From Rhodospirillales bacterium (GTDB lineage Bacteria > Pseudomonadota > Alphaproteobacteria > Acetobacterales > Acetobacteraceae), in NCBI GenBank assembly GCA_025352565.1, contig JANXTF010000066.1, forward strand, positions 1-64,000: a stretch of 64,000 bases of DNA. The letters are read 5' to 3'. The stretch's first letter is position 1. Every line of letters starts with the position of its first letter. The notes beneath the pieces were generated by a model. That model saw only the letters and a program-made list of their open reading frames with translations, ran no database searches and was not told where the DNA came from. Shown here one piece after another: positions 42-62,765 of the stretch. A program made the position numbers and the translations under genes.

Positions 42-94
42 ACACTTACAAAGACTATTTCGATATCGATTTTACATGTCAGGTGCCGGGATCT

Positions 95-877: not shown

Positions 878-973
878 GTCAGGGCAGGGAAGGCGGCATC
901 TTCCCCAGCGCCGGGGCGTTCCCTATGTTCGCCGACCGTCAACGACTTACGCCGACTGGATCGAGATGCCCGG

Positions 974-1261: not shown

Positions 1262-1264
1262 ACC

Positions 1265-10454: not shown

Positions 10455-10885
10455 TCGACAGGTCCGGCATCGCCCGCCTGATCCCTCATTCCGGCGACAT
10501 GGTGCTGCTCGATGGCGTGTTGCATTGGGACGCGGCCGGCATCGACTGCGTCGCCGAAAGCCATCGCCAGCCGGCCAACCCGCTGCGCCGCGGCGCAATC
10601 CTCGGCATCCTCTGCGGCATCGAATACGCCGCCCAGGCGATGGCGCTGCACGGCGCGCTCGGCGGCGGGGAAAGCCAGCCGCGCGGCGGCTTCCTCGCCA
10701 GCCTGCGCGATCTGGCGTGCCACACCGACCGGCTGGACATGCTGCCGGGCACCCTCGCGGTGTCCGCGAAACGCCTGCACGGCGAGGCCGGCCGGGTGAT
10801 TTACGCCTTCGCGCTCCGCCACGACGGCCAAATGCTGCTCGAAGGCCGCGCCGCCGTGGTACTGGCAGCCACGGTGGCGGCATGA
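10448..10885 (+). CDS. FabZ/FabA-like 3-hydroxyacyl-ACP dehydratase
   Basis: A 145-residue single hotdog-fold protein. IPHSGDMVLLDGV near residues 12-24 replaces the FabZ PHRyPfLLvD motif, and CGIEYAAQAMALHGAL forms the central helix. It dehydrates the 3-hydroxyacyl-ACP produced by the ketoreductase so that double bonds are retained in the polyene. With the ApeI-like domain of the 1265-2842 protein the cluster has two dehydratase modules, matching other APE systems. The stop overlaps the ketoreductase start. Confidence 0.85.
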   Translation: MLIDRSGIARLIPHSGDMVLLDGVLHWDAAGIDCVAESHRQPANPLRRGAILGILCGIEYAAQAMALHGALGGGESQPRGGFLASLRDLACHTDRLDMLPGTLAVSAKRLHGEAGRVIYAFALRHDGQMLLEGRAAVVLAATVAA

Positions 10886-11601
10886 AGCGGGCGTTGGTCA
10901 CCGGCGGCAGCGGCACGTTGGGCGCCGCCATCGCCCGCCGGCTCGCCCAGGCCGGCCACCACATCGTCATCCACGCCCATCGCGGCCTCGCGTCCGCCGA
11001 GGCGCTAGCGGCCGAAATCACGGCGCAAGGGGGCGCCGCCCAGGCCGTGCGGTTCGACATCACGGACCCCGCCGAGACCGCCACGGCACTCGCGCGGCTG
11101 CTCGAGGCAGGCCCCATCCAGATCCTCGTCAACAACGCGGGCATCCATGACGACGCGGTGATGCCCGGCATGGGCCACGCCCAATGGTCGCGCGTCATCG
11201 ACGTCTCGCTCAACGGCTTCTTCAACGTGACCCAGCCCTTGCTGCTCCCGATGATCCGCACCCGCTGGGGCCGCATCGTCTCGGTGTCATCGGTCGCGGC
11301 CCTCATGGGCAATCGCGGCCAGGTCAATTACGCCGCCGCCAAGGCGGGCCTGCACGGCGCCACGCGCGCGCTGGCGCTGGAACTCGCCAGCCGGGGCATC
11401 ACCGTCAACGCCGTCGCTCCCGGCATCATCGCCTCCCCGATGACGGCGGAGGCCTTCCCAGCAGCCGAAATCGCCCGGCTGGTGCCGATGAAGCGGGCCG
11501 GTGCGCCTGAGGAGGTGGCGGAATTGGTGGAATTCCTGGCCTCGGACCGGGCCGGCTACATCTCCGGGCAGGTGATCTCGGTCAATGGCGGAATGGCGTG
11601 A
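10882..11601 (+). CDS. 3-ketoacyl-ACP reductase (FabG-type SDR)
   Basis: A 239-residue classical SDR. NAD(P) motif TGGSGTLG at residues 7-14, NNAG in the middle, catalytic YAAAK (Tyr150, Lys154), and the typical ending YISGQVISVNGGMA. It reduces the 3-ketoacyl-ACP made by the ketosynthase pair. It is the last certain gene of the polyene operon; the acyl-CoA ligase follows after 22 bp and could be co-transcribed. Confidence 0.92.
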   Translation: MKRALVTGGSGTLGAAIARRLAQAGHHIVIHAHRGLASAEALAAEITAQGGAAQAVRFDITDPAETATALARLLEAGPIQILVNNAGIHDDAVMPGMGHAQWSRVIDVSLNGFFNVTQPLLLPMIRTRWGRIVSVSSVAALMGNRGQVNYAAAKAGLHGATRALALELASRGITVNAVAPGIIASPMTAEAFPAAEIARLVPMKRAGAPEEVAELVEFLASDRAGYISGQVISVNGGMA

Positions 11602-11623
11602 TTCACAGGCGGGCGGTGTGACG

Positions 11624-13138
11624 ATGCTGGAACCAAGGGAACGGACGGTGCCGGGGATGGTGCGTGCCGGCGCACGCCATGGCGCGCGCGTGCTGGCGCG
11701 GATGGATGGCACGGCCTGGCGCTTCGACGAGATCGGCGACGTGGCCGCGCGGTCGGCGGGGCGGCTTGCCGCCGCCGGCGTCGGCCGGGGCGACCGGGTG
11801 GCGCTGATGTGCGGCAACCGGGCGGCGCTGATCGAGACGGTGCTCGGCTGCGGCTGGCTCGGCGCCATCGCGGTGCCGATCAACACCGCGTCGCGCGGGC
11901 CGTCGCTCGCGCATGTGCTGTCCAACGCCGGCGCGCGGCTGGTGATCGTGGAGCCGGAACTGCGCCCGTTCCTGCCCACCGGCGCGGCGGCGATCTGGCA
12001 CGCCGATGCGCTGCCGCCGCCGGGCGAGGCGCTGCCGGCGGCCGACATCCGGCCCGGCGATCCGCTGGCGATCCTCTACACCTCGGGCACCACCGGCCCG
12101 TCCAAGGGCGTGATCTGCCCGCACGCGCAGTTTCATTGGTGGGGCACCCATGCCGGCGCTCTGCTGGGCATCGGCGCGGGCGACGTGCTCGCCACCAGCC
12201 TGCCGCTGTTCCACACCAATGCGCTGAACGCCTTTTTCCAGGCCCTGCTGCATGGCGCGACGCTGGATGTGGCGCCGCGCTTCACCGCGTCGGGCTTCTG
12301 GCGGCTGCTGGTGGAGAGCCGCGCCACCGTCACCTACGTGCTGGGCGCCATGGTGCCCATTCTGCTGGCGCGTCCGCCCGGCCCGGAGGAACGCGCGCAC
12401 ACCGTGCGCGTGGCGCTGGCACCCGGCGTGCCGGCCCATCTGCACGCGGCCTTCACGCAACGCACCGGCATCGCGCTGCTCGACGGGTACGGCTCGACCG
12501 AAACCAATTTCGTGCTCGGCTGCGCGGTCGCGGCCCAGCGCCCCGGCTGCATGGGCCCCGTCGTGCCCGGCTTCGCTGCCCGCGTGCTCGACGATGACGA
12601 CACCGAGGTGGCCGACGGCGTCGCGGGCGAACTGGCGCTGCGGGCGGACGAGCCGTTCGCCTTCGCGTCCGGCTACTGGGCGATGCCGGAGAAGACCGTG
12701 GAGGCGTGGCGCAACCTGTGGTTCCACACCGGCGACCGGGTGGTGCGCGAGGCGGACGGGTATTTCCGCTTCGTCGATCGGCTGAAGGACGCCATCCGCC
12801 GCCGAGGCGAGAACATCTCCAGCTTCGAGGTGGAGCAGGTTCTGCAATCCCACCCTGGTGTCGCGGGCGTCGCGGTGTTCCCGGCGCGCTCGGAACTGGC
12901 CGAGGACGAGGTGATGGCGGCCATCGTGCCGCGCGCGGGGATGGTGCTGGACCCAGTGGAACTGGTCCGGTTCTGCGAGGGCAAGCTGGCCTATTTCGCG
13001 GTGCCGCGCTTCATCGACTTCGTCGATACGCTGCCGATGACCGAGAACGGCAAGGTGCGGAAATTCGCATTGATCGCGCGCGGCGTGGCGCCGGCGACGT
13101 GGGACCGCGACGCGGCGGGCGTGGTGGTGCGGCGGTAG
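11624..13138 (+). CDS. Acyl/aryl-CoA ligase (ANL family, CaiC-like)
   Basis: A 504-residue adenylate-forming ligase with P-loop YTSGTTGPSKGV, DGYGSTETN, hinge and A8 motif RRRGENISSFEVEQVL, and the catalytic Lys in MTENGKVRKFAL near the C terminus. It activates a carboxylic acid as the CoA thioester. Substrate is unclear: the crotonobetaine-ligase-like sequence is a generalist scaffold. Lying between the polyene cluster and the aryl-CoA genes it could activate anthranilate, salicylate or indole-3-acetate (inference). The ATG at 11624 is preferred; GTG at 11618 in frame is possible, and the still earlier frame overlaps the reductase gene. Confidence 0.88.
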   Translation: MLEPRERTVPGMVRAGARHGARVLARMDGTAWRFDEIGDVAARSAGRLAAAGVGRGDRVALMCGNRAALIETVLGCGWLGAIAVPINTASRGPSLAHVLSNAGARLVIVEPELRPFLPTGAAAIWHADALPPPGEALPAADIRPGDPLAILYTSGTTGPSKGVICPHAQFHWWGTHAGALLGIGAGDVLATSLPLFHTNALNAFFQALLHGATLDVAPRFTASGFWRLLVESRATVTYVLGAMVPILLARPPGPEERAHTVRVALAPGVPAHLHAAFTQRTGIALLDGYGSTETNFVLGCAVAAQRPGCMGPVVPGFAARVLDDDDTEVADGVAGELALRADEPFAFASGYWAMPEKTVEAWRNLWFHTGDRVVREADGYFRFVDRLKDAIRRRGENISSFEVEQVLQSHPGVAGVAVFPARSELAEDEVMAAIVPRAGMVLDPVELVRFCEGKLAYFAVPRFIDFVDTLPMTENGKVRKFALIARGVAPATWDRDAAGVVVRR

Positions 13139-13165: not shown

Positions 13166-13852
13166 CTACCGTGCGCGGACGGCCCGTGGGCAGATGGCGG
13201 TGTGCATTGGGTAATGCGTGGTGCGCCCGTGGAACGGGGGGAAGCGCGCGAAGTCGTCGCGCATCTGGTGGCGCACCGGCGAGTTCAGCGCCTCGGTCAG
13301 CGCGGCCGGGTCGTCGAACACGACCTTGTTGCGCTGGAGCGCGTTCTCGCGGCGCCAGCCGCCCGGCCCGCACCAATCGATCCGCGTGTAGATCTCGATC
13401 GCGCGGATGGCGGGGAAGCGGGCCATGATCGGCGGGTGGTGGGCGATATAGTACGACAGCCACGCATTGGCGTCCTCCGCCTCGCCCTCGTAGGACACCA
13501 GGTAGGCGCATGGATGCGCGGAGCCGGCGGGGTCCGGCACCGGGAAACGCCGCGCCAGCATGGCCTGCGCGCCGATCATGGCCCCCGCGAGGCTGGGAAT
13601 TGCCGCCGCGATGGCCTGGGCGGGGCCTTGCAGGGCCGCCTCCAGCGCCTCGATGGCGGCAAAGCCCAGTTGCAGCACCAGCGGGGGCGGGCGGCCGTCG
13701 TCGAGATACGGGTCGCTCGTCGTGGCCGGAGTCATCGCCAGACCCTCCGTCAGCCCAGGCAGCGCGGCCACAAGCCGTTCGGCCGCCGCCAGGTGGCTTG
13801 CAGCCGCCGTGGCGGTCGGATGCGAGAAGGTCAGGAACAAGACAAGGCTCAT
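13166..13852 (-). CDS. EthD-like dimeric alpha/beta-barrel protein
   Basis: A 228-residue protein that looks like two ferredoxin-like (dimeric alpha/beta barrel) halves. The second half has SYYIAHHPPIMARFPAIRAI followed by EIYTRIDW, typical of EthD-type proteins of aromatic and hydroxylated-compound degradation clusters. No catalytic residues can be assigned. It is convergent with the ligase gene and divergent from the metallo-beta-lactamase gene, with 50 bp between the two starts. Confidence 0.7.
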   Translation of the reverse strand: MSLVLFLTFSHPTATAAASHLAAAERLVAALPGLTEGLAMTPATTSDPYLDDGRPPPLVLQLGFAAIEALEAALQGPAQAIAAAIPSLAGAMIGAQAMLARRFPVPDPAGSAHPCAYLVSYEGEAEDANAWLSYYIAHHPPIMARFPAIRAIEIYTRIDWCGPGGWRRENALQRNKVVFDDPAALTEALNSPVRHQMRDDFARFPPFHGRTTHYPMHTAICPRAVRAR

Positions 13853-14976: not shown

Positions 14977-17322
14977 TCAGGCAGCGCCCAGTTCGCCAGC
15001 CTCCCTGACCGGGGCATGCTGCTTCGGCTTGGCCTTCAGCTTCAACTCGCGCAATTCCGCCTGATCCTGCTCCGCCACCCGGAACAACTGCGCGCGTCCC
15101 GGCTCGTATTGCGGCGGGCAGGGCAGCAGCGCCACGCCATACTGCGCGGCTGCGTGCAGCGTGAAATACGGGTCCGCCAGATGCGGCCGGCCGAGTGCCA
15201 CCAGATCGGCGCGGCCGGCGGCCAGGATCGAATTCACCTGATCCGCGTTGGTGATGTTGCCGACGCACATTGTCGCCATGCCGCCATCGTTGCGGATCTG
15301 GTCGGAGAACGGGGTCTGGAACATCCGGCCATAGATCGGCCGCGCCTCGGGCACCGTCTGGCCCGATGACACGTCGATCAGGTCGCAGCCCGCGCGCGCG
15401 AAGGCGCGGGAGATTTCAAGCGCGTCATCGCCGGTGATGCCGCCCTCCATCCAGTCGGTGGCCGAAATCCGCACCGACATCGGCTTGGCCGCCGGCCACG
15501 CCGCGCGCATGGCGGCGAACACCTCCTGCGGGAAACGCAGCCGGTTCTCCAGCGTGCCGCCGTATTCGTCATCGCGGTGATTGGTCAGTGGCGAGACGAA
15601 CGACGCCAGCAGGTAGCCGTGCGCGCAATGCATCTCGATCATGTCGAACCCGGCGCGATCGGCCCGCGTCGTCGCCGCCACGAAATCGTCGCGCACCCGG
15701 TCCATGTCGGCCCGGTCCATCTCACGCGGAACCTGGCTGTCGGCATAGTACGGGATGGGCGAGGGCGCCAGGATCGGCCACGCGCCGCTGTCGAGCGGCC
15801 GGTCCATGCCGTCCCACATCAGCTTCGTCGCGCCCTTGCGCCCGGCATGGCCGAGTTGCAGGCAGATGCGCGACGTGCCGCGCGCGTGGACGAAGCCGAC
15901 GATGCGTTTCCACGCCGCTTCCTGTACGTCGGTGTAGAGCCCCGCGCAGCCGGGGCTGATGCGCGCCTCGGCGGAAACGTCCGTCATCTCGGTGAAGATC
16001 AAGCCCGCGCCGCCGATGGCCCGTGAGCCGTAATGCACCATGTGCCAGTCGCCCGGCACGCCGTCCTCGGCCGAATACATGCACATCGGCGACACCACGA
16101 CGCGGTTCGGCACCACCATCCCGCGCAACGCGAAAGGCTGGAACATCGGCGGCAGGGGGTGGTTGTTGCCGACATCGAAGCCGCTCGCCTTGACCTGCTG
16201 CGCGAACATCAGGTCGGTCTCGTCGATGAACTCCGGAGCGCGCAACTTGAGGTTGTCGTAGGTGATCGACTTCGACCGCGTCATCAGCCCGAACACGAAC
16301 TGCGTCGGGTCCATGTTCCAGAACCGCCCGATATGCTCGAACCACACCAGCGACACGTCGGCCGCGTGCTGCGTGCGCTCCACCACCTCGCGCCGCGAGG
16401 TCTCGAAGCGGGTGAGTGCCGCGGACACGCTGCTGCTCGCCTGGAACGCCTCGTACAGCGCGATGGCATCCTCCATCGCGAGCTTGGTGCCCGAGCCGAT
16501 GGAGAAATGCGCGGTCGATTTCGCGTCCCCCAGCAGCACCACGTTGCCCATCACCGCGGTGGCGTTGCGGATCATCGGGAAGCGGCGCCACAGCGAGCGG
16601 TTGGTGATGAGCGGATGACCGTCGAGGTCTTCGGCAAACACGCCTTCGAGGAAATGCGCCGACTCCGCCTCCGTCATCGCCTCCAGCCCGGCCTTGGCAT
16701 AGGTCTCGGCGCTGGTCTCCATCACCCAGGTCGATTGGCCCTGCTCGTACTGGTAGGCGTGGGCGATAAACACGCCGAACGCGGTCTCGCGGAAGCTGAA
16801 CAGGAAGGCGTCGAGCGGGCGGGTGGAGCCCATCCAGGCGAAGCGGTTGGGCCGCAAATCCACGCTCGGCTTGAAGTGGTCGCGATGCGCCTCGCGCACC
16901 CCCGAGTTGATCCCGTCGGCGGCCACGATCAGATCGCTGTCGGCGAACGCCGAGAGGTCGGAGATATCCGTCTCGAATCGCAACGTCACGCCCAGGCCCC
17001 GCGCCCGCTCCTGCAACAGCATCAGCAGCGTGCGCCGCGCGCAGCCGCAAAAACCGTTGCCGCCGATCCGGTGCGTGGTGCCCTTGAAGCGTACCTCGAT
17101 GTCGTCCCAATAGGCGAAGCTGCCGGTGATCATGCGGTAGCTCTCGGGATCGTATTTCGCGAACGTATCGAGCGTCGCATCCGAGAACACCACGCCGAAG
17201 CCGAACGTGTCGTCGGCGCGGTTGCGCTCGACCACCGCGATGTCGGATTGCGGCCAGGCCTTCTTCATCAGGATGGCGAAATACAGGCCCGCCGGGCCGC
17301 CGCCGAGGATCGAGATCTTCAT
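14977..17322 (-). CDS. Bifunctional aryl-CoA monooxygenase/reductase (2-aminobenzoyl-CoA or salicylyl-CoA type)
   Basis: A 781-residue two-domain flavoenzyme. The N half (1 to about 385) is a class A FAD monooxygenase: [10 protein letters not shown] at 7-16 and [18 protein letters not shown] as the second FAD motif. The C half (about 400-760) is an old-yellow-enzyme flavin reductase: [39 protein letters not shown]. This architecture is that of Azoarcus 2-aminobenzoyl-CoA monooxygenase/reductase, which hydroxylates and then reduces anthraniloyl-CoA; databases also call it salicylyl-CoA 5-hydroxylase/oxidoreductase. Sequence alone does not decide the substrate. The ATG at 17322 begins right before the FAD motif; the nine extra upstream codons lack support. 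It is divergent from the SDR gene across about 100 bp. Confidence 0.9.
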
Positions 17323-17370
17323 TCGGTCGTCCTGTTCCTCAGGGTCCAAGCCCCGGAAAATAGTTTAGGG

Positions 17371-17425: not shown

Positions 17426-18154
17426 ATGGAGCCGGCGGGACGGCGCGCACTGGTCACCGGCGGCGGCCAGGGCATCGGGGCGGCCATCGCGCGCGCGCTC
17501 ACGCTGGCCGGCGCCGAGGTCACGGTGCTGGGCCGCCGGCGGGAGCCGCTGGCGGAAATGGTGGCGGCAGGCCATGCCGCAGCTTTTATCGTGGCCGACG
17601 TGACCGCTTCGCCCGAGATCGGCGAGACCGACATCCTGGTGAACAACGCCGGCGCCGTGGAGCCTGCACCCTTCGCCAAGCTGGACCGCGCCATGTGGGA
17701 CCGCGCCATCGCCGTCAACCTCACCAGCGTCTTCACCCTGACCCATGCCGCACTCCCGGGAATGCTGGCGCGCGGCTACGGCCGCGTGGTCAACGTCGCC
17801 TCCACCGCCGGCCTCGTCGGCTACCCCTATGTGGCGGCCTATGTCGCGGCCAAGCACGGCGTGATCGGGCTGACGCGGGCGCTGGCGCTTGAAACCGCCC
17901 GCGCCGGCATCACCGTCAACGCCGTGTGTCCGGGCTATACCGAGACCGAATTGATGGCGGAGAGCATGCGCGGGCTGATGGCGAAAACCGGACGCAGCGA
18001 GGCCGAGGCGCGCGCCGCCTACGCCAAAAGCAACCCGCAGGGCCGCCTGGTGACGCCTGGGGAAGTGGCGGCCGCCGTGATGTTCCTGGTCGGCCCCGGC
18101 TCGGACGCGATCACCGGCCAGGCCATCGCGGTCGCCGGCGGAGAGGTGATGTGA
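17426..18154 (+). CDS. SDR family 3-hydroxyacyl-CoA dehydrogenase/oxidoreductase
   Basis: A 242-residue classical SDR with TGGGQGIG near the N terminus, NNAG, catalytic Ser in NVASTAG, YVAAK and the ending [14 protein letters not shown]. Context suggests oxidation of a ring-derived hydroxyacyl-CoA in the same route as the divergent monooxygenase/reductase; in Azoarcus the equivalent clusters also carry dehydrogenases for the dearomatised CoA ester. The TGA overlaps the ATG of the RidA gene. Confidence 0.88.
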
Positions 18155-18540
18155 TGCTGGTGACGTTGCAGCCGCCCGGCTGGCCGCGCCCGAAAGGCTA
18201 CGCCAACGGCATGGCGGGCGAGGGCCGCATCGTGCTGACCGGCGGACAGATCGGCTGGGACGCGGAGGGCGTGTTCGCCGACGGGCTGGTGGCGCAGGTG
18301 CGCCAGACGCTGCTCAACATCCTTGCCGTCCTAGCCGAAGCCGGCGCCGGGCCGGAGCATATCGCGCGCCTCACCTGGTACGTGACCGACATCGAAGCCT
18401 ATCGCAACGCGGGGCGCGACATGGGGGCCGCATGGCGCGAGGTGATGGGCCGCAACTTCCCCGCCATGGCGGTGATCGGCGTGACCGCGCTGGTCGAGCG
18501 GGCGGCCCTGGTCGAAATCGAGGCGACCGCGATCCTGTAG
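18154..18540 (+). CDS. RidA family enamine/imine deaminase
   Basis: A 128-residue RidA (YjgF/YER057c/UK114) protein with the family core: LTGGQIGWD, FADGLVAQVRQTLLNI, TWYVTDIEAYR, and FPAMAVIGVTALVERAALVEIEATAIL ending. The usual RidA Arg (R105 in others, in the PaRs.v motif) aligns with the FPAMAVIGV region, where Arg is missing, so it may be a subgroup other than archetypal RidA. RidA proteins hydrolyse enamines and imines to ketones and ammonia. The expected product of 2-aminobenzoyl-CoA monooxygenase/reductase is an enamine, so this co-transcribed protein fits as the deaminating step (inference). Confidence 0.85.
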   Translation: MLVTLQPPGWPRPKGYANGMAGEGRIVLTGGQIGWDAEGVFADGLVAQVRQTLLNILAVLAEAGAGPEHIARLTWYVTDIEAYRNAGRDMGAAWREVMGRNFPAMAVIGVTALVERAALVEIEATAIL

Positions 18541-18622: not shown

Positions 18623-19345
18623 CTAAACCGCCAAACTCCCCAAACTGGCCCCGCCGCACACGAACAAGGTCTGCCCCGTCACGAACCCCGCCCCCGCGTC
18701 GGCAAAGAACATCACCGCCCGCGCCACATCTCCCGGCCGCCCCAGCCGCTTCACCGGAATGCCCGCCGCCAGCCGCGTCTCGCGCTCGCTCCCCGCCGGC
18801 ACCACCTCGTGGAACATCCGCGTCCCCCCGATCGGCCCCGGCGCCACCAAATTCACCGTGATCCCATTGGCCGCCAGTTCCAGCGCCCAGGTCCGCGCCA
18901 TCCCGATCATGCCCGCCTTCGTCGCCGAATAGGCGGTCCGCGTCTCCGCCCCCAGTGCGGCGCGCGAGGACAGCAGCACCACGCGCCCGAACCCACGCCG
19001 CTTCATTCCCGGCAGCACCGCCTGCAATATCTGCAACGGCGCCCCGAGATGCAGTTGCGTCAGCGCCTGGAGATCCTCCAGCTTCACATCCGCCAGCAGG
19101 TCGGGCCGGATCACCCCCGCGTTGTGGATGAGGTGGCTCACCTCGAACCGCGCGGCGAGGTCGGCCGCCATTTGCGCGGTCGAGTCCGGGTCCATCAAAT
19201 CGACCACCACCACGCGCAGCCGCTCATGCTCCCAGTCGGGCGCCTCGTGTGCCACGGAAATAACCTCGTAGCCCTCCGCGATCATCGCCCGGCAGATCGC
19301 GCTCCCGATGCCGCCCGATCCGCCGGTGACGATCGCGACGCTCAA
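18623..19345 (-). CDS. SDR family oxidoreductase, last gene of the indole-type operon
   Basis: A 240-residue classical SDR: TGGSGGIG, HNAG in place of NNAG, Ser in LLSSRAALG, YSATK, and a terminal FVTGQTLFVCGG. It is the last gene of the leftward operon that starts at iorA and overlaps the cyclase-family gene by four bases (ATGA). A dehydrogenase could oxidise a dihydrodiol or dioxindole produced after the Rieske step (inference). Confidence 0.87.
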   Translation of the reverse strand: MSVAIVTGGSGGIGSAICRAMIAEGYEVISVAHEAPDWEHERLRVVVVDLMDPDSTAQMAADLAARFEVSHLIHNAGVIRPDLLADVKLEDLQALTQLHLGAPLQILQAVLPGMKRRGFGRVVLLSSRAALGAETRTAYSATKAGMIGMARTWALELAANGITVNLVAPGPIGGTRMFHEVVPAGSERETRLAAGIPVKRLGRPGDVARAVMFFADAGAGFVTGQTLFVCGGASLGSLAV

Positions 19346-20133
19346 GAGGCGACCAGCGCCAGCACCCGCAGCGGGCTGCCGCTGCCGCCCTGGATTTTCA
19401 GCGGCGGGCTCACGATCACCGCCCCGGTCGCCGGCAGCTTGTCAAGGTTGGACAGGCATTGCAGGCCGTAGCGGCCCTTGCCGTGCATGTAGAAATGCGC
19501 GGGGTAGGGCGGTGTGAAATGATGCGCCTGCCCGGCATCGGTGCCGATGGTCTCGGTGCCGAAGCCCAGCACGTCGCGCTCCTCCACCAGGAAGCGCACG
19601 GCTTCGGGGTCCGGTCCCGGCGTGTGCGCGCCGTCCTCCTTCATGTTCGCGTAGGCGGCCCCCGAGCGTTTCGACCAGTCGGTCCGCAGCAGCACCCAGC
19701 ACCCGGCCGGGATGGGTCCATGCGCCGCCTCCCACGCTTCCAGCACCGAGCGCGTCAGCACGAAATCATGGTTCGCCGCCGTCTCCCTCGAGCAATCGAT
19801 CACCACGGCGGGCGCGATGAACTTGTCGGCCGGGATGGTGTCCACCGTGTTGTTCGGGAAATCCTTGCCCGAGACCCAATGGATCGGCGCGTCGTAATGC
19901 GTGCCGGTGTGTTCGCCGCAGGAGAAGTTGTTCCAGTACCAGGCAGGCCCCCGCGCGTCGTAGCGCGAGATCTCCTCCAGGCGGAACGGCGCGCATTGGC
20001 CGAACTCCGGTGGCAGCGCGATGGTCGGGAAATCCGCTGACAACGTCTGCGTGAGGTCGATCACGGTGATGCGGCCGCTGACGAGGTCGGCGGCGAAATC
20101 GGCCAAACTGCTTGTGGGTGTGGGGCTGCTCAT
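19342..20133 (-). CDS. Cyclase-family (PF04199) metal hydrolase, isatin-hydrolase candidate
   Basis: A 263-residue member of the cyclase/kynurenine-formamidase superfamily. The metal site HTGTHYDAPIH is intact (His75, His79, Asp81, His85), preceded by WYWNNFSCGE. Family members include kynurenine formamidase, isatin hydrolase and polyketide-type cyclases; all open or form amide or ester bonds with a Mn or Zn ion. With a Rieske dioxygenase, an IorAB pair and a 2-aminobenzoyl-CoA-type enzyme nearby, opening of isatin to isatinate is the most coherent guess, but formamidase activity cannot be excluded. ATG at 20133 is preceded by AAAGGAACG at good spacing. Confidence 0.85.
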   Translation of the reverse strand: MSSPTPTSSLADFAADLVSGRITVIDLTQTLSADFPTIALPPEFGQCAPFRLEEISRYDARGPAWYWNNFSCGEHTGTHYDAPIHWVSGKDFPNNTVDTIPADKFIAPAVVIDCSRETAANHDFVLTRSVLEAWEAAHGPIPAGCWVLLRTDWSKRSGAAYANMKEDGAHTPGPDPEAVRFLVEERDVLGFGTETIGTDAGQAHHFTPPYPAHFYMHGKGRYGLQCLSNLDKLPATGAVIVSPPLKIQGGSGSPLRVLALVAS

Positions 20134-20146
20134 GAATACGTTCCTT

Positions 20147-21349
20147 TCAAGAGGCGAGTTCGCGTTCCAGAATTTTCGGGTCGTCACGAAAGCGGGCCAG
20201 GATATCCTGCGCGACATCGCCAACCGCCACTTCCTCCACCCCGTCGCGCAACGCCTTGACGATGGCGCTGGCCAGGGCGGCGGGAGCGAGTTTCGGCGGC
20301 GGCACGGCTTGGTGCCATTCGTCGTCCAGCGGCCCGATCAGCGCGTTCACCACCCGGATCGGCCGCAGATCGGCCCGCAAGGCCTGCGAAAGCGACAGGG
20401 CGGCGGATTGGGAGGCGGAATACGCCCCCCAACTCGGCAGATTGGCGAGTGCATACACCGACAGCACATTCACCCACGCGCAGGCCGGATGCGTGCCATC
20501 GGCCGCCCGCGCGCGCAACGCCGGCCCGATTGCCTGCGCCAGCCGCATCGGCCCGAAATACGCCGCCTCCATCTCCACGCGGGCCGTCGTGAGGTCGCCG
20601 CGTTCCAGAATGCCGCCGGGGCGCGTGTGCAGGCCGGTGTTCACCACGATCTCCAGCCGCCCGCCATGGGACGCGGCGCAGCGGTGCACGCTGTCGGCAT
20701 CGGTGAGGTCGAGTTCGATGGTCTCGGCGCCCTCGACAGCCGCGAACGGCCGCCATGTCTCGGCCACTCCCAGCCATACCCGCGCGCCGGCCGCCAGCAT
20801 GGCGCGGGCCACGTCCTGGCCCACCGCATGGCGGCCATCCGTCACCAGCACGCGCCGGTCCTTGGGGTCGCAGGTCATCTCGCGCATCATCGGATCATCC
20901 AGCAGATCGCCCGGTTGCGCGAGGGGCAGCGCCACCATCGCGCCCTGTCCCGCGCGGTCGAGTTTCTGCGCCAGGCGCACCCGGTCGCCTTGCGCCACGC
21001 CGGCCGGCAGGTGCGCGATGACGGCGGGTCCGGCATCCATCGCGACCATGCCGGTGCGCCAGGGCGTGCGCTCACGGAAATACGGGTCGGCGGTGACGCG
21101 GATGGTCGTGGCGGCGATCAGCGTGCCCTCGGGCGGGACCGCACGCCAGGCAAGCCCGTCGTGCAGGCATGTGCCGCAGATTTCGCGAGGCGGGTACTGC
21201 ACGGCCTGGCACGCGGCGCAGACCTGAAGCGCGAACCCGCCGCGCGCGGCCGCCGCCGTGATGCCGAGCGCCGTGCGGCTGCGCGCCGCCGGCGGCTGCA
21301 AGGCCGCGCGGGTACGGAGCAGCGGATTTTTGCGTTTCGGCGGGATCAA
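20147..21349 (-). CDS. DUF35 Zn-ribbon/OB protein fused to a degenerate SDR domain
   Basis: A 400-residue fusion. Residues about 35-150 are a DUF35-type rubredoxin-like Zn ribbon (Cys44, Cys47, Cys58, Cys61) plus an acyl-CoA-binding OB fold, the usual partner of SCPx-like thiolases. Residues about 165-395 are an SDR fold, but the nucleotide motif is degraded (VTDGRHAVGQ) and the catalytic Lys of YxxxK is Gln (YSASQ), so dehydrogenase activity is doubtful. The thiolase-like gene lies directly upstream. The start is taken as TTG at 21349, overlapping that gene's TGA; translation from 21382 would require reading far into it. Confidence 0.8.
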   Translation of the reverse strand: MIPPKRKNPLLRTRAALQPPAARSRTALGITAAAARGGFALQVCAACQAVQYPPREICGTCLHDGLAWRAVPPEGTLIAATTIRVTADPYFRERTPWRTGMVAMDAGPAVIAHLPAGVAQGDRVRLAQKLDRAGQGAMVALPLAQPGDLLDDPMMREMTCDPKDRRVLVTDGRHAVGQDVARAMLAAGARVWLGVAETWRPFAAVEGAETIELDLTDADSVHRCAASHGGRLEIVVNTGLHTRPGGILERGDLTTARVEMEAAYFGPMRLAQAIGPALRARAADGTHPACAWVNVLSVYALANLPSWGAYSASQSAALSLSQALRADLRPIRVVNALIGPLDDEWHQAVPPPKLAPAALASAIVKALRDGVEEVAVGDVAQDILARFRDDPKILERELAS

Positions 21350-22521
21350 CCGTCGACCCCCAGGATCGCGGCCCCGCTGCACAGCCCGCGGTCATAGTTG
21401 ATCATTCCAAAGCCCGATGCCATCGCGACCTTCGCATCGGCCACCTTGGCCCCCAGCGTCTCGCCGGTGAGCTGGCGGATTGCCTCCACCAGCCCAAGAT
21501 GCCCGCCCGCCGCGCCTGCCTGGCCCACCGAAAGTTGGCCGCCCGAGGTGTTGTGCGGGAAGTCTCCCCGCGCGGTGAGGTCATGCGCGCGGACGAAGGC
21601 GGGGCCTTCGCCTTTCGCGCAGAAGCCGAGATCCTCGAACTGCATCATCACGATCACCGGATAATCGTCGTAGGTTTCCAGCAGGTCGATGTCGGCGGGG
21701 GCGACCCCTGCCATGCCGTACAGCTCGTCGCGATCCACCGCCCAGCCGCCGCGCAACTGGATCGGGTCGGCGGCGAAGGCGTTGTGCCGCTCGATGGTGG
21801 AGAGCAGGCGGGCCGATGGCAGGTTCAGCGCACGCGCGGTGTCGTCGCGCATCACCAGGAACGCCTCGGCGCCGGCGCACGGCATGACGCAATCGAACAA
21901 CGCCACCGGATCGGCGATCGGTCGTGCCGCGAGGTATTGCGCCATGGTGAGCGGGCGCTTCATCAAGGCGTGCGGCGTGCTGAGGGCGTTCGTTCGCTGC
22001 GAAACGCAGATGCGCCCGAAATCCTCGCGCGTGGCGCCGTAGGTTCGCATATACGCGTCCGTCAGCAGCGCGAAACTCATGTTCGGGCCGCCGGCGCCGT
22101 AGGGATACACGGCGTCGGTCGAGAAGCGGCTGAAGCCGGTCAGCTGCTGGCGGAAACTGTCCGGATGATTGGTGTCGCCGGCCACGCACGCGACGATATC
22201 GGCGTCCCCGGCCTGCACCGCGCGCGCCGCGCGCCGCAGGGCCACGATGGCGCTGGCGCCGCCCATGGGAATGTGGTCGAGCCAGCGGGGCGAAATGCCG
22301 AAATGCTGCGTAAGGCCAATGGCGGTGTCGAGGCCGAGCGAGAAACTGGAGCAGCAGAACCCATCGAGGTCGGCGGGCCGCAACCCGGCGCGCTTGAGCG
22401 CGGCCGCGAGGGCCTGGCCGATCCAGCGTTGCGCGCCGTGGATGGAGTAGCGTTCGTACGGGATGGTGGTCGGCGCCGCCACCACGATGCCGTCATAACC
22501 CCGCCGCGTGGGTTTCGTCAC
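21346..22521 (-). CDS. Thiolase-like protein without catalytic Cys, putative CoA-dependent retro-aldolase
   Basis: A 391-residue thiolase-superfamily protein of the SCPx/Ltp2 type. At the nucleophile position the usual CA(S/T)G is HIPMGGASA, without Cys, and the HPxGA motif is SVGQAGAAGG, without His. Classical thiolysis is therefore unlikely. Ltp2-type enzymes of steroid breakdown also lack the Cys and, bound to a DUF35 protein, cleave beta-hydroxyacyl-CoA by retro-aldol reaction; the DUF35 partner is encoded immediately downstream. Predicted reaction here: release of acetyl-CoA from a 3-hydroxylated side-chain CoA ester. The start is GTG at 22521, coupled to the stop of the Rieske beta gene. 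Confidence 0.85.
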   Translation of the reverse strand: MTKPTRRGYDGIVVAAPTTIPYERYSIHGAQRWIGQALAAALKRAGLRPADLDGFCCSSFSLGLDTAIGLTQHFGISPRWLDHIPMGGASAIVALRRAARAVQAGDADIVACVAGDTNHPDSFRQQLTGFSRFSTDAVYPYGAGGPNMSFALLTDAYMRTYGATREDFGRICVSQRTNALSTPHALMKRPLTMAQYLAARPIADPVALFDCVMPCAGAEAFLVMRDDTARALNLPSARLLSTIERHNAFAADPIQLRGGWAVDRDELYGMAGVAPADIDLLETYDDYPVIVMMQFEDLGFCAKGEGPAFVRAHDLTARGDFPHNTSGGQLSVGQAGAAGGHLGLVEAIRQLTGETLGAKVADAKVAMASGFGMINYDRGLCSGAAILGVDG

Positions 22522-22991
22522 ATGAACAACTGGATGTTGCCGAACGCGCTATCCGGGTTCACCAGATCGACCCGCTTCAGTTTCATCCGCAACGCACCGT
22601 CGATCATCGTGAGGTGATGGCGGCTCCATCCCGCGTACAACGTCTGTTCGTCCAGTCGCGACTCGACGTAGTGGAAGGGTGTGTAGGTGACGTAGCGGTT
22701 CGCCGCCGCATCGGACTCGTCCACCACGGGCGTCTGCAGCACGTGATGGCAGCGGCTTTTCGGTTTCTGGCTGAAAGTGCGGGCGCCAAGCAGGCGCTCC
22801 ACCCGGATGCGGAGCAGCAATTTGTCGTCGTAGAACAGCGATTGCTGCAATACAGGATCGGTCTGGCCCATTTCCAGCGGCATCCAGTAGCGGCCATCCT
22901 CGGTGAACAGATCGAGCCATTCCTCGAAACGCTGCTCGTCGATCAGGCGTGCCTCATGCACCACGAAGCCGATCAGATCCGCCGCGTTCAT
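22518..22991 (-). CDS. Rieske ring-hydroxylating dioxygenase, beta subunit
   Basis: A 157-residue small subunit of the SnoaL/NTF2-like fold: FVVHEARLIDEQRFEEWLDLF, DGRYWMPLE, and SRCHHVLQTPVV match the benzoate/anthranilate/naphthalene dioxygenase beta family. It has a structural role in the alpha3beta3 hexamer. The ATG at 22991 overlaps the alpha-subunit stop (ATGA); an earlier in-frame start would lie within the alpha gene. Its stop is coupled to the thiolase-like GTG. Confidence 0.9.
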   Translation of the reverse strand: MNAADLIGFVVHEARLIDEQRFEEWLDLFTEDGRYWMPLEMGQTDPVLQQSLFYDDKLLLRIRVERLLGARTFSQKPKSRCHHVLQTPVVDESDAAANRYVTYTPFHYVESRLDEQTLYAGWSRHHLTMIDGALRMKLKRVDLVNPDSAFGNIQLFM

Positions 22992-24298
22992 GCCGGCGCC
23001 ATGAACTTCGCCCAGGCGCGGAACTGGTTGCGCATCTGCCACTCGGTCGTGCCGTTGGTGACCGCCGTTTCCTGATCCCGCTCGGCCGGGTCATACAAAC
23101 GCTGCATGTTCACCCACGGGTTTGCGTCCGAATGCAGGCTCTCCTGCGCGCGCTCGTACATCTCCAGATCGTCATGGCCCACCACCGACGTCGGCGCGTT
23201 CACCAGGCGGCTGTACATGAGGGTGCGTTCGAGCAACTGGTCGGGCGCTCCCACCAGCCGAAAGGTCCAACTCTCCACCAGCGTCCTGTGGGCGGCCAGC
23301 GGCTTGAACACGCGCAGAGTCTGGATCGGCCCCTTCAGCGTCATGTTCGGGAAATACACCGTGTTGTGCCGGTTGATGTCCAGGATGGCCTTGGCGCGGT
23401 CCTCGCCATACGCCGCCACCATCGCGTCGAAATAGCCTGGCACGGCGGAATAGTTGGAATGGATCGAGCCCGCGACGCCGGTATGGCCGTGGCCGTTCGG
23501 CCAGATGCGGATGCCCATGGCTTCGTAAAAGCTGTACGGCGACATGAACGGCGCGTAGATCTCGACCGCCGGATGGCGCGGCGTGCCCTCGGGCTGCTGC
23601 TTCCACAGGCGCGTGGCGGTGCCGGCCGAGCTTTCATGCGCGATCATCGGATGGCAGGTGTCGGTCAGGTTCTCGACCAGCATCTTCCAGTTGCAACGAT
23701 GCATGTAGCGCAGCACGGCGCCGGCGACTTCCAGGCGGCCGACCGGCGAGCGATCCACCATGTTGTCGATGCTGCTGAGCGCGTCGCCGAAATACGTCTC
23801 GAAATCCGGGCCGCCATCATTGATTTTGGCAAACACAAATTCCCGGTATTCCCGCACATGCCGCACCGGCGCCATGCCCTGCGCGGCGGCCGTCGCCTCG
23901 ATGCCGGTGTTATCGTAGCCCTCCTTGAGCGGAATCGAGTGCAGCTTGCCGTCGGTGCGAAACGCCCAGCCGTGATACGGGCAACGGAACAGCCGCCCGG
24001 TGTTGCCGCACACCTCGCTGGCCACCTTGGTGCCCTTGTGGGGGCAGCGATTATGCAGCACCCGCACCACGCCGGTGTGGTCGCGTACCATCACAACGGG
24101 CTGCGCGCCGATGGTGGTGGTGGCGTAGTCGCCCGCATTCGCCACCTGGCTCGCGTGGCCGACATACACCCAGGTGTTGGCGAACAGCCGCTCCATCTCG
24201 AGTGCGAACACGCCGGGGTCGGTATAAACGTCGCGATGAACCTCGGTCTCGCGAACCAGGGCGCGAAGGGCGCCGGCATCGGTGCGATAATCAGGCAT
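22988..24298 (-). CDS. Rieske ring-hydroxylating dioxygenase, alpha subunit
   Basis: A 436-residue catalytic subunit. The Rieske [2Fe-2S] ligands are Cys85, His87, Cys106 and His109 (CPHKG, CPYHGW). The mononuclear Fe site is NLTDTCHPMIAH with His216 and His221, and Asp213 is the bridging residue; a distal acidic ligand is expected near DDLEMYE. It oxidises an aromatic or heteroaromatic ring with O2. No ferredoxin or reductase component is encoded next to it, so electrons must come from elsewhere; the iron-sulphur-bearing IorA upstream is not a usual donor. It overlaps iorB by eight bases. Confidence 0.92.
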   Translation of the reverse strand: MPDYRTDAGALRALVRETEVHRDVYTDPGVFALEMERLFANTWVYVGHASQVANAGDYATTTIGAQPVVMVRDHTGVVRVLHNRCPHKGTKVASEVCGNTGRLFRCPYHGWAFRTDGKLHSIPLKEGYDNTGIEATAAAQGMAPVRHVREYREFVFAKINDGGPDFETYFGDALSSIDNMVDRSPVGRLEVAGAVLRYMHRCNWKMLVENLTDTCHPMIAHESSAGTATRLWKQQPEGTPRHPAVEIYAPFMSPYSFYEAMGIRIWPNGHGHTGVAGSIHSNYSAVPGYFDAMVAAYGEDRAKAILDINRHNTVYFPNMTLKGPIQTLRVFKPLAAHRTLVESWTFRLVGAPDQLLERTLMYSRLVNAPTSVVGHDDLEMYERAQESLHSDANPWVNMQRLYDPAERDQETAVTNGTTEWQMRNQFRAWAKFMAPA

Positions 24299-25796
24299 CG
24301 AGCGTCCTCACTGTCGCCAACGCGCCTTCCAACGCCACGCCCGCCTCATCCACCAGCGCCGCGTCGCGCAGGCGGCGAACCCAATCGGCGGTGTCCGCAC
24401 GGCCCGCCAGCAACGGAATTGCGCCGATCACGCGGTCGAACTTGCTCTGCCCGCGCATGTGAGTGTCCGAATATCCCTTCACCAGCCGGCGGCATTTAAG
24501 CACCTCCAGCGCCAATGCGGGATCATGGTTCATGTGGTGCCGCACAACCGTCAGCCACGCCTCGACATGGGCCATCTCGCGCTCATGGCGCAGCAATGCG
24601 CGGCGCCAGCGGCGCAAGCCCGCGATCAGCCAAAGCGGCAGGAAGCCGGCGACCGACGTGGTCCGCATCCGCCGTCCGTGGTCCACCACGGAACGCAGCG
24701 CGCGCACGAGCATGGGCGAGCCCTCGATGAATGCCCCCAGCCGGCGCGGCAGCGTGCCGCAGACCTCGTCCACGCGCGGGTGCATGAACTCGACGGTGCT
24801 CACCAGCTGATCGGGCCGCGCCGCCACCTCGCGGCGCACGCGATCGAACCGGCTCGCGCGTGTCTTGAGATCGGCCACGCGGATCACGTCGTCATAGGCG
24901 AGCGCAACAGCGACGAACCGCGCCGCCTCGCTCAAAGCGGCGTCGGGCAACGGGCGCAACGTGTCGAGCCGATCGAGATATTCGTGACCGTAGGCGACAT
25001 CCTGATAGTCGATCACGCGGGCGAGCCCGGTGCGGAGCATGGCGCGGGCTTCGGCGGGGAAGGTGGCGATCCGTTCGAGGGCGCGATCAAGCGCCGCGCG
25101 GTCCTGTTCGCGGCCGAAGATCGGCGCCGGTGGCGGCGTCGGCTTCGGGGGCACGATCTCCGGCGCTTCGATGGCGTCGAACCCGGCGGCGAACGCGCGA
25201 AGGCTGGCCGCGACCGCGATGCCGCTCGCGCGGATCGTGTCCTCGAACGCCGCGCGCGGGAACGGCAACGCGGCGGAACCGGCCAGGGCGCCGAACAGCG
25301 AAGCCGAGATCACGCTGCCCGCGCGTTCGGCCAGATATTGCATGTCGGCACACAGGAAGCGCGCCGACAGGCCGTTGGCCGCGGTCAGCACATCGGTGGG
25401 ATCGGTGATGCCGTCCCCTGGCGCTGCCTTTTCCGGCACGGCGAGGGCTCTGTGCGAAGAGGCAATCAGCGTGGTGCGGTCCGGCGACACGAGGCCGCGC
25501 TGGATCGCGCGCCCCGCCTCCATCAACTCCGCCGCGATCACCACATCCACATCGCCCGGCACCGGCAGCAGCGACAATATCGGGTGCGCGCCATCCCGCG
25601 CGCGGATCAGTTCGACATAATAGATCGTGGCGCCGGTGCGCTGGGCCACGCCGGGAACCGACGTGCTTTGCGCGACCCACCCGGCGCCTTCAGCCATCGC
25701 CACGATCCAATCCGCCAACACGCCGCCGCCTTGTCCGCCCATCGCGAGGATGGCGACCGCGAGCGGGCGGTCGGTGGCGATCGCCGGGGAGGCCAT
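24291..25796 (-). CDS. iorB: Indolepyruvate-type 2-oxoacid oxidoreductase, beta subunit
   Basis: A 501-residue long-form IorB. The N half (about 15-205) is the pyruvate-oxidoreductase gamma domain, MGGQGGGVLADWIV and SVPGVAQRTGAT; the C half is the helical DUF6537 region characteristic of proteobacterial long IorB. With IorA it oxidatively decarboxylates an aryl 2-oxoacid to the CoA ester, reducing ferredoxin. It starts 1 bp after the iorA stop and overlaps the Rieske alpha gene. The true substrate could be indole-3-pyruvate, phenylpyruvate or an arylglyoxylate such as isatinate. Confidence 0.9.
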   Translation of the reverse strand: MASPAIATDRPLAVAILAMGGQGGGVLADWIVAMAEGAGWVAQSTSVPGVAQRTGATIYYVELIRARDGAHPILSLLPVPGDVDVVIAAELMEAGRAIQRGLVSPDRTTLIASSHRALAVPEKAAPGDGITDPTDVLTAANGLSARFLCADMQYLAERAGSVISASLFGALAGSAALPFPRAAFEDTIRASGIAVAASLRAFAAGFDAIEAPEIVPPKPTPPPAPIFGREQDRAALDRALERIATFPAEARAMLRTGLARVIDYQDVAYGHEYLDRLDTLRPLPDAALSEAARFVAVALAYDDVIRVADLKTRASRFDRVRREVAARPDQLVSTVEFMHPRVDEVCGTLPRRLGAFIEGSPMLVRALRSVVDHGRRMRTTSVAGFLPLWLIAGLRRWRRALLRHEREMAHVEAWLTVVRHHMNHDPALALEVLKCRRLVKGYSDTHMRGQSKFDRVIGAIPLLAGRADTADWVRRLRDAALVDEAGVALEGALATVRTLDA

Positions 25797-25797
25797 G

Positions 25798-27942
25798 TCA
25801 GGCGAGCGCCACGCGCCCGGCCTCGCGCCGGCGTTGCAGCCAGCCGATCACGCGGGTGCGGACACGGTCCAGCAGACGATCCATCGCGTTGGGATTGTGA
25901 ACGACGTCGGCGCGATAGAACGACGGACACAATACGGCGGCCTCGGCCACCTCGCCGCAATTGCCGCAGCCCACGCAGGTCTCGTCGATGACGGCAACCG
26001 GATCGAGCTTCAATGGATCGTCGGATCGCTTGACGGACAACGAGGGGCAACCCGATAGGCGGATGCAGGCGTGGTCGCCGGTGCAGACATCCTCGTCGAT
26101 GCCGAATTTTGGCTTGACCCGCCGTTCGCCGCGCTTCACCGCCGCGTTGAACAGCGGCCGCTCCCGGCGCTGCTTGTTCAGCATACACTCGGAAGACGCG
26201 ATCACGATTTTCGGCCCACGCACGGCGGTGGTGAGCGCCAGCCGCAGCGTGTCGCGCATTTTGGCCACGTCATAGGTGCGGTCGATGCGTTTCACCCAGG
26301 TGGCGCCGATGCCGCGCACGGCGTCCTCGATCGGGTGCTGGGTGCTGCGGTCTGGGCTCGTGGCGCGCGACGACAGGATGTCCTGCCCGCCGGTGGCGGC
26401 CGAATAATGGTTGTCCACGATCACCGTCACGGCGTCGCTCTTGTTGAACACGGCATTGCCGATGCCGGTCACCAGCCCGTTGTGCCAAAATCCACCGTCG
26501 CCCATCACCGAGATCGCGCGCTTCCTGGCGGGCACGTTGAAGGCCGATGCGGAGGAGGGACCGAGACCGTAGCCCATGGTGGTCGCGCCGAGATTGAATG
26601 GCGGGTTGATCGCGAACAGGTGGCAGCCGATGTCGCACGCGATGTGATGCGCCCCCAGTTCCTTCTGCACCAGTGTCATCGCCGAGAATATCGGCCGCTC
26701 GGGGCAGCCGGTGCAGAAGCTGGGCGGGCGCGCGGGTACGGTTCTGGCGAGCGCCTGGACCCGCGGGTCCGACAGCACGGGGGCGGCACTTGGCGGCCGC
26801 GCGCGGTCTAGCTCTGGCGCGTGCCTGTCGAGGAACTTGCCCAGGCCGTCGATGAGGGCGTCGGCGGTGTATTCGCCCGCCATCGGCAGGACATCCTTGC
26901 CGCACAGGGCGGTATCGACCCCGGCGCGGCGCAGGATGGCGTTGAGCGCCTGCTCGATGAAGTCGGGTTGGCCTTCCTCCACCATCAGCACCGCCCGCTT
27001 GCCGCGGCAGAACGCGGCCAGGTCCTCGTCGATCAACGGATAGGTGACGTTCAGCACGTGCAGCGGCACGCGCGTGTTGCCCCAGATATCGGCCAGACCG
27101 AACAGCTTCAGCGCGCGCAGAACGCCGTTGTACATGCCGCCTTGCAGGATGATGCCCAGGTCGGCGATGTCGCCGTCGAAAGTCTCGTTCAAGCCGTTTC
27201 GCCGGATGTACTCGACCGCGGCGGGCCAGCGGCGCTTGATCTTGTCCTGCTCGTGCATGAACGAGGCGGGCGGCAGCACGATGCGGTTGACGTCGGTCAC
27301 TGGATTCTCCAGCGCCTCGGCAAGCGTGTATGTCGGCTTCTGATTGTCCTTGCAGATGAAACTGCCATGGACGTGGCAGGCCCGGATGCGGAGCTCCAGC
27401 ATCACCGGGGTGTTGCTGGCCTCCGACAAGGCGAAACCATGCTCCACCGCAGCCACGATGCTCGGCAGATTCGGGCGCGGGTCCAGCAGCCAGATTTGCG
27501 ATTTCATGGCGAAGGCGTGGGTGCGCTCCTGCATGATGGAGCTGCCCTCGCCGTAATCCTCGCCGATCACGATCAGCGCGCCACCCGTAACGCCGCCGGA
27601 GGAGAGGTTGGAGAGCGCGTCGGACGCGACGTTGGTGCCGGCAGTGGACTTCCAGGTGACGGCGCCGCGGATCGGGTACATCACAGAAGCCGCCAACGTG
27701 GACGCGGCGGCCGCTTCGCTGGCACTGAACTCGAAATGCACGCCCAGATCGGACATGATCCCCTGGGCATCGGAAAGCACGTCCATCAGGTGCGAGATCG
27801 GCGCGCCCTGATAACCGGCGACATAGCCCACGCCCGACTGAAGCAGCGCCTTGGTAACGGCCAGAATCCCTTCGCCACGGAACTCCTCGCCGACGGCAAG
27901 TTTCAAATCCTGGACTTCACGGGCGAAAGAACGTTCAGCCAT
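25798..27942 (-). CDS. iorA: Indolepyruvate-type 2-oxoacid:ferredoxin oxidoreductase, alpha subunit
   Basis: A 714-residue subunit containing the pyrimidine-binding domain (about 1-200), the hinge region, the thiamine-diphosphate domain with MGDGGFWHNGLVTGI and NHYSAATGGQ, and a C-terminal pair of 4Fe-4S motifs near 625-690 (CTGDHACIRLSGC and CVGCGNCGE...CP). The Cys content fits electron transfer to ferredoxin. It is the first gene of the leftward operon and has a convincing promoter upstream. Its presence in one transcript with a Rieske dioxygenase is unusual, since most IOR operons are iorAB alone or with a transporter or regulator. Confidence 0.92.
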   Translation of the reverse strand: MAERSFAREVQDLKLAVGEEFRGEGILAVTKALLQSGVGYVAGYQGAPISHLMDVLSDAQGIMSDLGVHFEFSASEAAAASTLAASVMYPIRGAVTWKSTAGTNVASDALSNLSSGGVTGGALIVIGEDYGEGSSIMQERTHAFAMKSQIWLLDPRPNLPSIVAAVEHGFALSEASNTPVMLELRIRACHVHGSFICKDNQKPTYTLAEALENPVTDVNRIVLPPASFMHEQDKIKRRWPAAVEYIRRNGLNETFDGDIADLGIILQGGMYNGVLRALKLFGLADIWGNTRVPLHVLNVTYPLIDEDLAAFCRGKRAVLMVEEGQPDFIEQALNAILRRAGVDTALCGKDVLPMAGEYTADALIDGLGKFLDRHAPELDRARPPSAAPVLSDPRVQALARTVPARPPSFCTGCPERPIFSAMTLVQKELGAHHIACDIGCHLFAINPPFNLGATTMGYGLGPSSASAFNVPARKRAISVMGDGGFWHNGLVTGIGNAVFNKSDAVTVIVDNHYSAATGGQDILSSRATSPDRSTQHPIEDAVRGIGATWVKRIDRTYDVAKMRDTLRLALTTAVRGPKIVIASSECMLNKQRRERPLFNAAVKRGERRVKPKFGIDEDVCTGDHACIRLSGCPSLSVKRSDDPLKLDPVAVIDETCVGCGNCGEVAEAAVLCPSFYRADVVHNPNAMDRLLDRVRTRVIGWLQRRREAGRVALA

Positions 27943-62698: not shown

Positions 62699-62765
62699 GC
62701 ATTCTTCACTTGTCCGGAGCACGGACAAAGGCGAAATATCCTCAGCGGAAATCAGGAGACACGCC

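Follow-up and report, generated by a model that had tools for sequence, protein, structure and literature searches.

Retro-aldolases that use a thiolase fold together with a DUF35 partner are known from steroid degradation. They include the Ltp2-ChsH2 aldolase of the steroid C17 side chain (6ok1) and the Sal-Shy aldolase of bile-acid side chains from Comamonas testosteroni (CtSal; 9myr; PMC12329534). Ltp2 converts a coenzyme A (CoA) thioester with a tertiary beta-hydroxyl group at a ring position into a ring ketone, with Tyr294 and Tyr344 as catalytic residues, and Sal releases acetyl-CoA from a beta-hydroxyacyl-CoA, with Tyr302 and Cys304 as catalytic residues, Gln347 and Gln352 behind them, and the substrate hydroxyl placed on the amide of Gly89 (PMC12329534). 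A DUF35 partner also accompanies the thiolase-like subunit of benzoylsuccinyl-CoA thiolase BbsAB (7pxp) and of other SCP2-like thiolases. A thiolase-like protein is likewise encoded by the iad locus for the degradation of the auxin indole-3-acetate (IAA), described in Variovorax, Achromobacter, and Bradyrhizobium (PMC9613470, PMC10374108, PMC12633357), where the order iadA-B-(C)-D-E-(F)-G-H-I-J is shared and iadA/iadB serve as locus markers (PMC9613470). An operon of this type is present in the window analyzed here, a stretch of 64,000 nucleotides from contig JANXTF010000066.1 of a Rhodospirillales bacterium (GCA_025352565.1). Its iadG gene (positions 21346-22521) is the subject of this work. 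The IadG protein is probably a retro-aldolase with a thiolase fold, partnered in IAA degradation by the DUF35 domain of IadH, and its most likely reaction is the redox-neutral retro-aldol cleavage of dioxindole-3-acetyl-CoA into isatin and acetyl-CoA.

The iadG open reading frame encodes 391 residues from a GTG start on the minus strand. The start of iadG and the stop of the Rieske beta gene share 4 bases, and a TTG start of the DUF35 gene likewise overlaps the end of iadG, which makes iadG a member of the operon. A match to Pfam Thiolase_C_1 (2.3e-33) places the protein in the thiolase superfamily, and its NCBIfam matches are thiolase-like and lipid-transfer models, every one far under its cut-off. 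The original prediction held that the nucleophilic cysteine and the histidine were missing, and this was borne out. The nucleophile region reads IPMGGASAIV, without a cysteine; the position of GHPxGA is occupied by GGQLSVGQAGAAGG, without a histidine; and YDDY, a motif that the prediction had not mentioned, stands in place of HDxF. The positive control, an SCP2-type thiolase that the window encodes at 62562-63932, has NACATGS, HDCF, and GHPIGATG intact, and the losses are thus specific to iadG. Among 86 IadG orthologues, Y284, D285, D286, Y287, Q334, G87, and G88 are invariant. The cysteine of the N-terminal half is replaced by GGAS[AG], and in IadG of the window YDDY and GQAGAAGG stand in place of the two histidine motifs (HDxF or NEAF, and GHPxGA). 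The invariance of G87 and G88 means that a cysteine never occurs at the nucleophile glycine, and no other cysteine was seen at the nucleophile position in the sequence alignments. Such invariance excludes chance or decay, and the possibility of a pseudogene or a sequencing artefact was ruled out by the 86 intact orthologues. Judged by its motifs, the protein usually named "thiolase" in the iad operon is devoid of thiolase machinery and looks like an aldolase that cuts carbon-carbon bonds. A large set of further homologues (including those of loci L002, L021, and L024-L026) harbors YDxF and lacks a cysteine where the nucleophile glycine stands; among the proteins that bear a thiolase or lipid-transfer annotation, many may not be thiolases.

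Among solved structures, those nearest to IadG in sequence and fold include the two DUF35-dependent aldolases. The best phmmer matches in the PDB are, in order, CtSal 9myr (5e-48), 4u4e, and TcLtp2 6ok1, and the first three Foldseek ranks for the AlphaFold2 model of IadG (mean pLDDT, the predicted local distance difference test score, of 83) are taken by 9myr and 6ok1. In a phylogenetic tree, IadG falls with CtSal (support 0.86) and with a clade of YDD[YF] proteins, whereas the Cys/His thiolase 7yvy and BbsB, which carry HDxF and GHPxGA, stand apart. CtSal is about 29% identical to IadG, and the two share the thiolase fold without the nucleophilic cysteine, the tyrosine in YDxY, the two glutamines, the GGQLSxGQxGxAGG motif, and the DUF35 partner. 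When residues are counted through the phmmer alignment, with CtSal numbered as in PMC12329534, Y302, C304, Q347, Q352, and Gly89 of CtSal correspond to Y284, D286, Q329, Q334, and G88 of IadG, all five invariant in the 86 orthologues. IadG is nevertheless not a Sal proper, as Asp286 replaces the catalytic cysteine of YDCY in 86/86 orthologues. Nor is it an Ltp2 proper. The base Tyr294 of Ltp2 is retained as Tyr284, again in every orthologue, but Tyr344 is replaced by Gln334 and His296, the histidine of YDHF, by Asp286. Of the Ltp2 tyrosines that the original prediction proposed to look for, the first is thus present and the second is not, its position being a glutamine in Sal as well. On its aligned residues, the active site of IadG is nearer to that of Sal than to that of Ltp2, being Sal-like with an aspartate for the cysteine. 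Taken with the predicted fold, the phylogeny, the operon context, and the chemistry discussed below, these residues support the earlier proposal of carbon-carbon cleavage rather than thiolysis. Further thiolase-like proteins with YDD[YF] and GQxG are encoded in loci L014-L018, next to a DUF35-type zinc ribbon in L014-L016, and are candidate additional aldolases.

In the loci whose contig continues, iadG is followed by a DUF35 sequence. The original prediction was right that a DUF35 gene directly follows iadG in the window, but the gene encodes a two-domain protein in which DUF35 is fused to a degenerate short-chain dehydrogenase/reductase (SDR), and not a partner of the ChsH2 type, to which it had been likened; ChsH2 is a MaoC-DUF35 protein, as is the partner of Sal. 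The listed open reading frame of iadH begins at 21382, and DUF35 spans residues 43-137 of that frame. The N-terminal half matches Pfam zf-ChsH2 and OB_ChsH2_C (zinc ribbon and OB fold), and the four zinc-binding cysteines expected of a DUF35 partner are kept in 105/105 sequences. The C-terminal half was modelled as an SDR Rossmann fold (pLDDT 88), its closest fold match being 5u4s, an NADP complex. Nonetheless, it lacks the signature of a classical SDR dehydrogenase (TGxxxGxG and Tyr-x3-Lys): the first glycine is Asp or Asn in all 105 sequences, and the catalytic Tyr and Lys pair is present in 1 and absent from 104. The pair was absent from all of the first 76 sequences, which were brought to 105 by the addition of a Burkholderiales sample; Burkholderiales-like IadH often keep the lysine with a phenylalanine for the tyrosine, and one keeps both residues. 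By comparison, IadJ homologues from iad operons, used as a control, retain TGxxxGxG in 36/36 and YxxxK in 35/36 cases. In Alcaligenes faecalis (L113) and in a locus from a metagenome-assembled genome (L054), IadH consists of DUF35 without any SDR half, from which it follows that DUF35 is what stays constant and that IadH can do without its SDR half. A dehydrogenase activity of IadH, as a working SDR, was set aside as unlikely on these grounds. A different arrangement is found in Burkholderia multivorans (L042, 6911-16927), where a diverged IadG (39%) with YDDY is followed by a stand-alone small DUF35 protein, in a locus that also holds a PRK06155-type ligase, iadA, iadB, and an isatin hydrolase.

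The next gene of the operon, iadI, indicates which product to expect. IadI, a cyclase-family hydrolase, matches isatin hydrolase A (408 bits) and shares the metal motif of the enzyme from Labrenzia (Roseibium) aggregata (LaIHA; Table 1), which was crystallized with isatinate and assayed as an isatin hydrolase (PMC6117287). In Roseibium aggregatum, iadGH is directly followed by a gene whose product is 96% identical to LaIHA. An isatin hydrolase gene is present in 60 of the 61 loci in which iadG is flanked on each side by 8 kb or more. Among 195 good-quality genomes of the class, five have a close IadG (>500 bits), and exactly these five have a close IadI (>340 bits), in counts that are not adjusted for relatedness. 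The isatin hydrolase identity fixes isatin as the product that IadG and IadH should deliver. Loci L076 and L120 harbor two isatin hydrolase genes each, one before iadA and one after iadH.

In Variovorax, IadCDE and IadJ oxidize IAA to C10H9NO4, dioxindole-3-acetate (DOAA), and DOAA accumulates upon deletion of iadF, iadG, iadH, or iadI (PMC12633357). This 2025 preprint, which describes the products of iadF-J as a ligase, an acetyltransferase, an alcohol dehydrogenase, a kynurenine-formamidase-like protein, and a dehydrogenase, calls IadG a ketothiolase and IadH an alcohol dehydrogenase, and is the sole paper found that assigns a reaction to IadG. On this annotation-based proposal, the two proteins and IadF would take off the side chain in a reductive reaction that yields dioxindole (C8H7NO2). 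In its favor, C8H7NO2 builds up when iadI is deleted or when a strain expresses the operon lacking this gene, deletion of iadG or iadH lowers anthranilate formation, IadG does have a thiolase fold, one IadH of 105 keeps Tyr-x3-Lys, and most Burkholderiales IadH keep the lysine. However, a thiolase needs a beta-keto group, and C3 of DOAA is quaternary, so that a ketothiolase substrate cannot form there and thiolysis is impossible without ring opening. The description thus fits neither DOAA chemistry nor the residues of the two proteins: the nucleophilic cysteine and both histidines are missing from all IadG orthologues, the SDR signature is lost from IadH when IadJ of the same operon keeps it, and the IadH of Alcaligenes faecalis and L054 have no SDR domain at all. 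The retro-aldol assignment contradicts the ketothiolase and dehydrogenase assignment, which we consider very improbable.

A retro-aldol cleavage, by contrast, would be balanced without a reductant, because the formula of DOAA (C10H9NO4) is the sum of isatin (C8H5NO2) and acetate (C2H4O2). In the pathway that we infer, the Rieske enzyme IadDE and the dehydrogenase IadJ would make DOAA, and a CoA ligase, either IadF or the alternative ligase of the window, would convert it to DOAA-CoA. In this beta-hydroxyacyl-CoA, C3 of the oxindole serves as the beta carbon and bears a tertiary alcohol, an arrangement that corresponds to the substrate type of Ltp2, and cleavage of DOAA-CoA would release acetyl-CoA as Sal does, from an indole instead of a steroid substrate. 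In a complex of IadG with IadH, Tyr284 would act as the base on the C3 hydroxyl, the C3-CH2 bond would break, and a proton from the Asp286/Gln329/Gln334 network would quench the acetyl-CoA enolate, giving isatin and acetyl-CoA without any cofactor. IadI would then hydrolyze isatin to isatinate, and IadAB may oxidize isatinate to 2-aminobenzoyl-CoA, as suggested by their ketoacid-oxidoreductase family and by the nearby fusion of a flavin adenine dinucleotide (FAD) monooxygenase with an old yellow enzyme. Published deuterium data, with four aromatic deuteriums in all later intermediates, are consistent with a retro-aldol step and do not discriminate between the alternatives.

Two other routes can be considered. 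First, IadG and DUF35 could act as a retro-aldolase while the SDR domain of IadH still has affinity for NAD(P)H or isatin and turns a fraction of the isatin into dioxindole by reduction, which would be a true intermediate that is re-oxidized. In support of this, cultures contain dioxindole, a compound of that formula builds up when IadI is missing, and the SDR domain is predicted to be well formed (pLDDT 88, 5u4s match) and is kept in most loci; yet its residue losses and its absence from Alcaligenes and L054 argue otherwise, and the substrate of isatin hydrolase is isatin itself. This route therefore appears unlikely, although less so than the ketothiolase scheme. Second, a ring-opened beta-ketoacyl-CoA of the 2-aminobenzoylacetyl-CoA type, known from the anaerobic iaa pathway, could be cut by a thiolase devoid of cysteine to yield 2-aminobenzoyl-CoA, which the FAD monooxygenase fusion could take up, and DUF35 partners are indeed used by BbsAB-type thiolases. 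But BbsB retains HDxF (as HDAF) and GHPxGA (as GHPIGA), whereas IadG has neither, a same-operon gene of proven isatin hydrolase type would be left without a role, and isatin and isatinic acid are found in iad cultures. We regard this second route as hardly credible, the least probable of all.

Several observations weigh against the retro-aldolase assignment of IadG. The segment 119-143 is a low-confidence part of the AlphaFold2 model, and the oxyanion residue Gln161 of CtSal is replaced by Pro or Ala (Pro146 here), next to the invariant Asn147. We know of no tested precedent for an aspartate as the acid in a thiolase fold. Many loci, mostly from Bradyrhizobium, carry iadGHI without a nearby Rieske gene; in these, the natural substrate or the upstream oxidation may differ. 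Finally, the compound reported from the Variovorax iadI deletion is C8H7NO2, the formula of dioxindole, and not isatin (PMC12633357), for which we assume a reduction of accumulated isatin by side reactions or by a reductase. A more specific form of the retro-aldolase assignment, somewhat favored over its negation, would add IadG/IadH to Sal and Ltp2 as a third type of retro-aldolase with a thiolase fold, defined by a catalytic Tyr-Asp pair (YDDY) and by the fusion of DUF35 to a catalytically dead SDR, which may pass isatin to isatin hydrolase. On this view, IadG/IadH supplies the missing carbon-carbon cleaving step of auxin degradation.

The gene order around iadG is that of the published iad locus (Table 1), which identifies the product of 21346-22521 as IadG and the DUF35 fusion as IadH; orthology to the Variovorax IadG is drawn from gene order and annotation only. 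The setting of steroid degradation suggested by the original prediction was rejected, the neighboring genes being iad genes. In the window, iadA-B-D-E-G-H-I-J lie in a row, with a CoA ligase gene 8 kb away. The markers iadA and iadB are thus present with the Rieske genes iadDE; IadD is strongly matched, the next family after 7yls/8h2t and 9o71 scoring 146 bits, and IadI is of the isatin hydrolase type. From our own reading of the entries and of PMC10374108, 7yls/8h2t is the Variovorax IadD structure. Unlike in the published loci, iadC and iadF are missing from the operon, and a candidate for the iadC reductase lies on another contig (G000:C107:21854-22765). Achromobacter and Aromatoleum loci carry iadR followed by iadA-B-C-D-E-F-G-H-I-J, and those of Sulfitobacter, Roseibium, and Ruegeria the order C-D-E-F-G-H-I-J.

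Table 1. Coordinates and predicted functions of the iad operon and associated genes in the window.
Feature	Positions	Strand	Description
acyl-CoA ligase	11585..13138	+	NCBIfam PRK06155 above cut-off; the genome's best iadF-like gene
FAD monooxygenase/old-yellow-enzyme fusion	14977..17349	-	NCBIfam PRK08255 above cut-off
iadJ	18623..19345	-	SDR dehydrogenase; dioxindole-3-acetate-forming by gene order
iadI	19342..20133	-	isatin hydrolase; 64% identical to LaIHA (5NNA/5NNB); metal motif EHTGTHYDAPIHW
iadH	20147..21349	-	zinc-ribbon/OB DUF35 and degenerate SDR; 400 aa when started at the TTG that overlaps the end of iadG
iadG	21346..22521	-	thiolase fold without Cys/His; proposed retro-aldolase (Tyr284, Asp286, Gln329, Gln334, Gly88)
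iadE	22518..23042	-	Rieske oxygenase beta subunit
iadD	22988..24298	-	Rieske oxygenase alpha subunit; 7yls/8h2t and 9o71 at 592-598 bits
iadB	24291..25796	-	indolepyruvate-oxidoreductase-type beta subunit; possible 2-ketoacid oxidoreductase for isatinate
iadA	25798..27942	-	indolepyruvate-oxidoreductase-type alpha subunit (thiamine pyrophosphate, ferredoxin-like)

The ligase of the window belongs to a family that recurs in iad loci. Of the 61 well-flanked loci, 28 carry iadF only, 21 a PRK06155 ligase only, 4 both, and 8 neither, a distribution in which the PRK06155 family would stand in for iadF in loci devoid of it. Relatives of this ligase are found in L062, L080, L115, L129, and the Bradyrhizobium loci. 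Among the latter, L073 and others harbor iadG-H-I and a PRK06155 ligase with no Rieske gene nearby, and adjoin genes that, from their sequences, encode a gentisate-dioxygenase-like cupin and a fumarylpyruvate-hydrolase-like protein. A protein encoded in the window at 13166-13852 (minus strand) has no Pfam or NCBIfam match and by eye resembles that of L073 2522-3247. The FAD monooxygenase fusion is a candidate for acting on 2-aminobenzoyl-CoA or salicylyl-CoA in the lower pathway, to which the SDR and RidA-family genes beside it (17426-18540, plus strand) also likely belong; this SDR and the fusion are found together in L050 and L109 too. Further away, positions 1-11601 have, from open reading frame translations, the look of an aryl-polyene or lipid-type cluster, with ketosynthases, an acyltransferase, an exporter, FabG, and an AMP ligase.

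Root growth is shaped by iad-dependent auxin degradation, a trait now being introduced into root bacteria by engineering. The literature leaves the removal of the side chain on the way to isatin unassigned or gives it to a ketothiolase, and an aldolase would explain this step. In word searches, "aldol" and "DUF35" did not occur in the text of PMC12633357, nor "aldol" and "thiolase" in that of PMC9613470; in the literature searched, mostly non-subscription, no proposal of a retro-aldol step in auxin degradation was found, and an earlier one is possible. A retro-aldolase assignment would make the pathway consistent in its redox balance, name isatin as the product, and fix IadI as an isatin hydrolase. 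It would also add an indole hormone to the steroids handled by DUF35-dependent aldolases, with another catalytic pair at work. If IadG/IadH does represent a third type, the wider YDD[YF]/GQxG clade (e.g. the proteins of L014-L018) would comprise further aldolases acting on other substrates.

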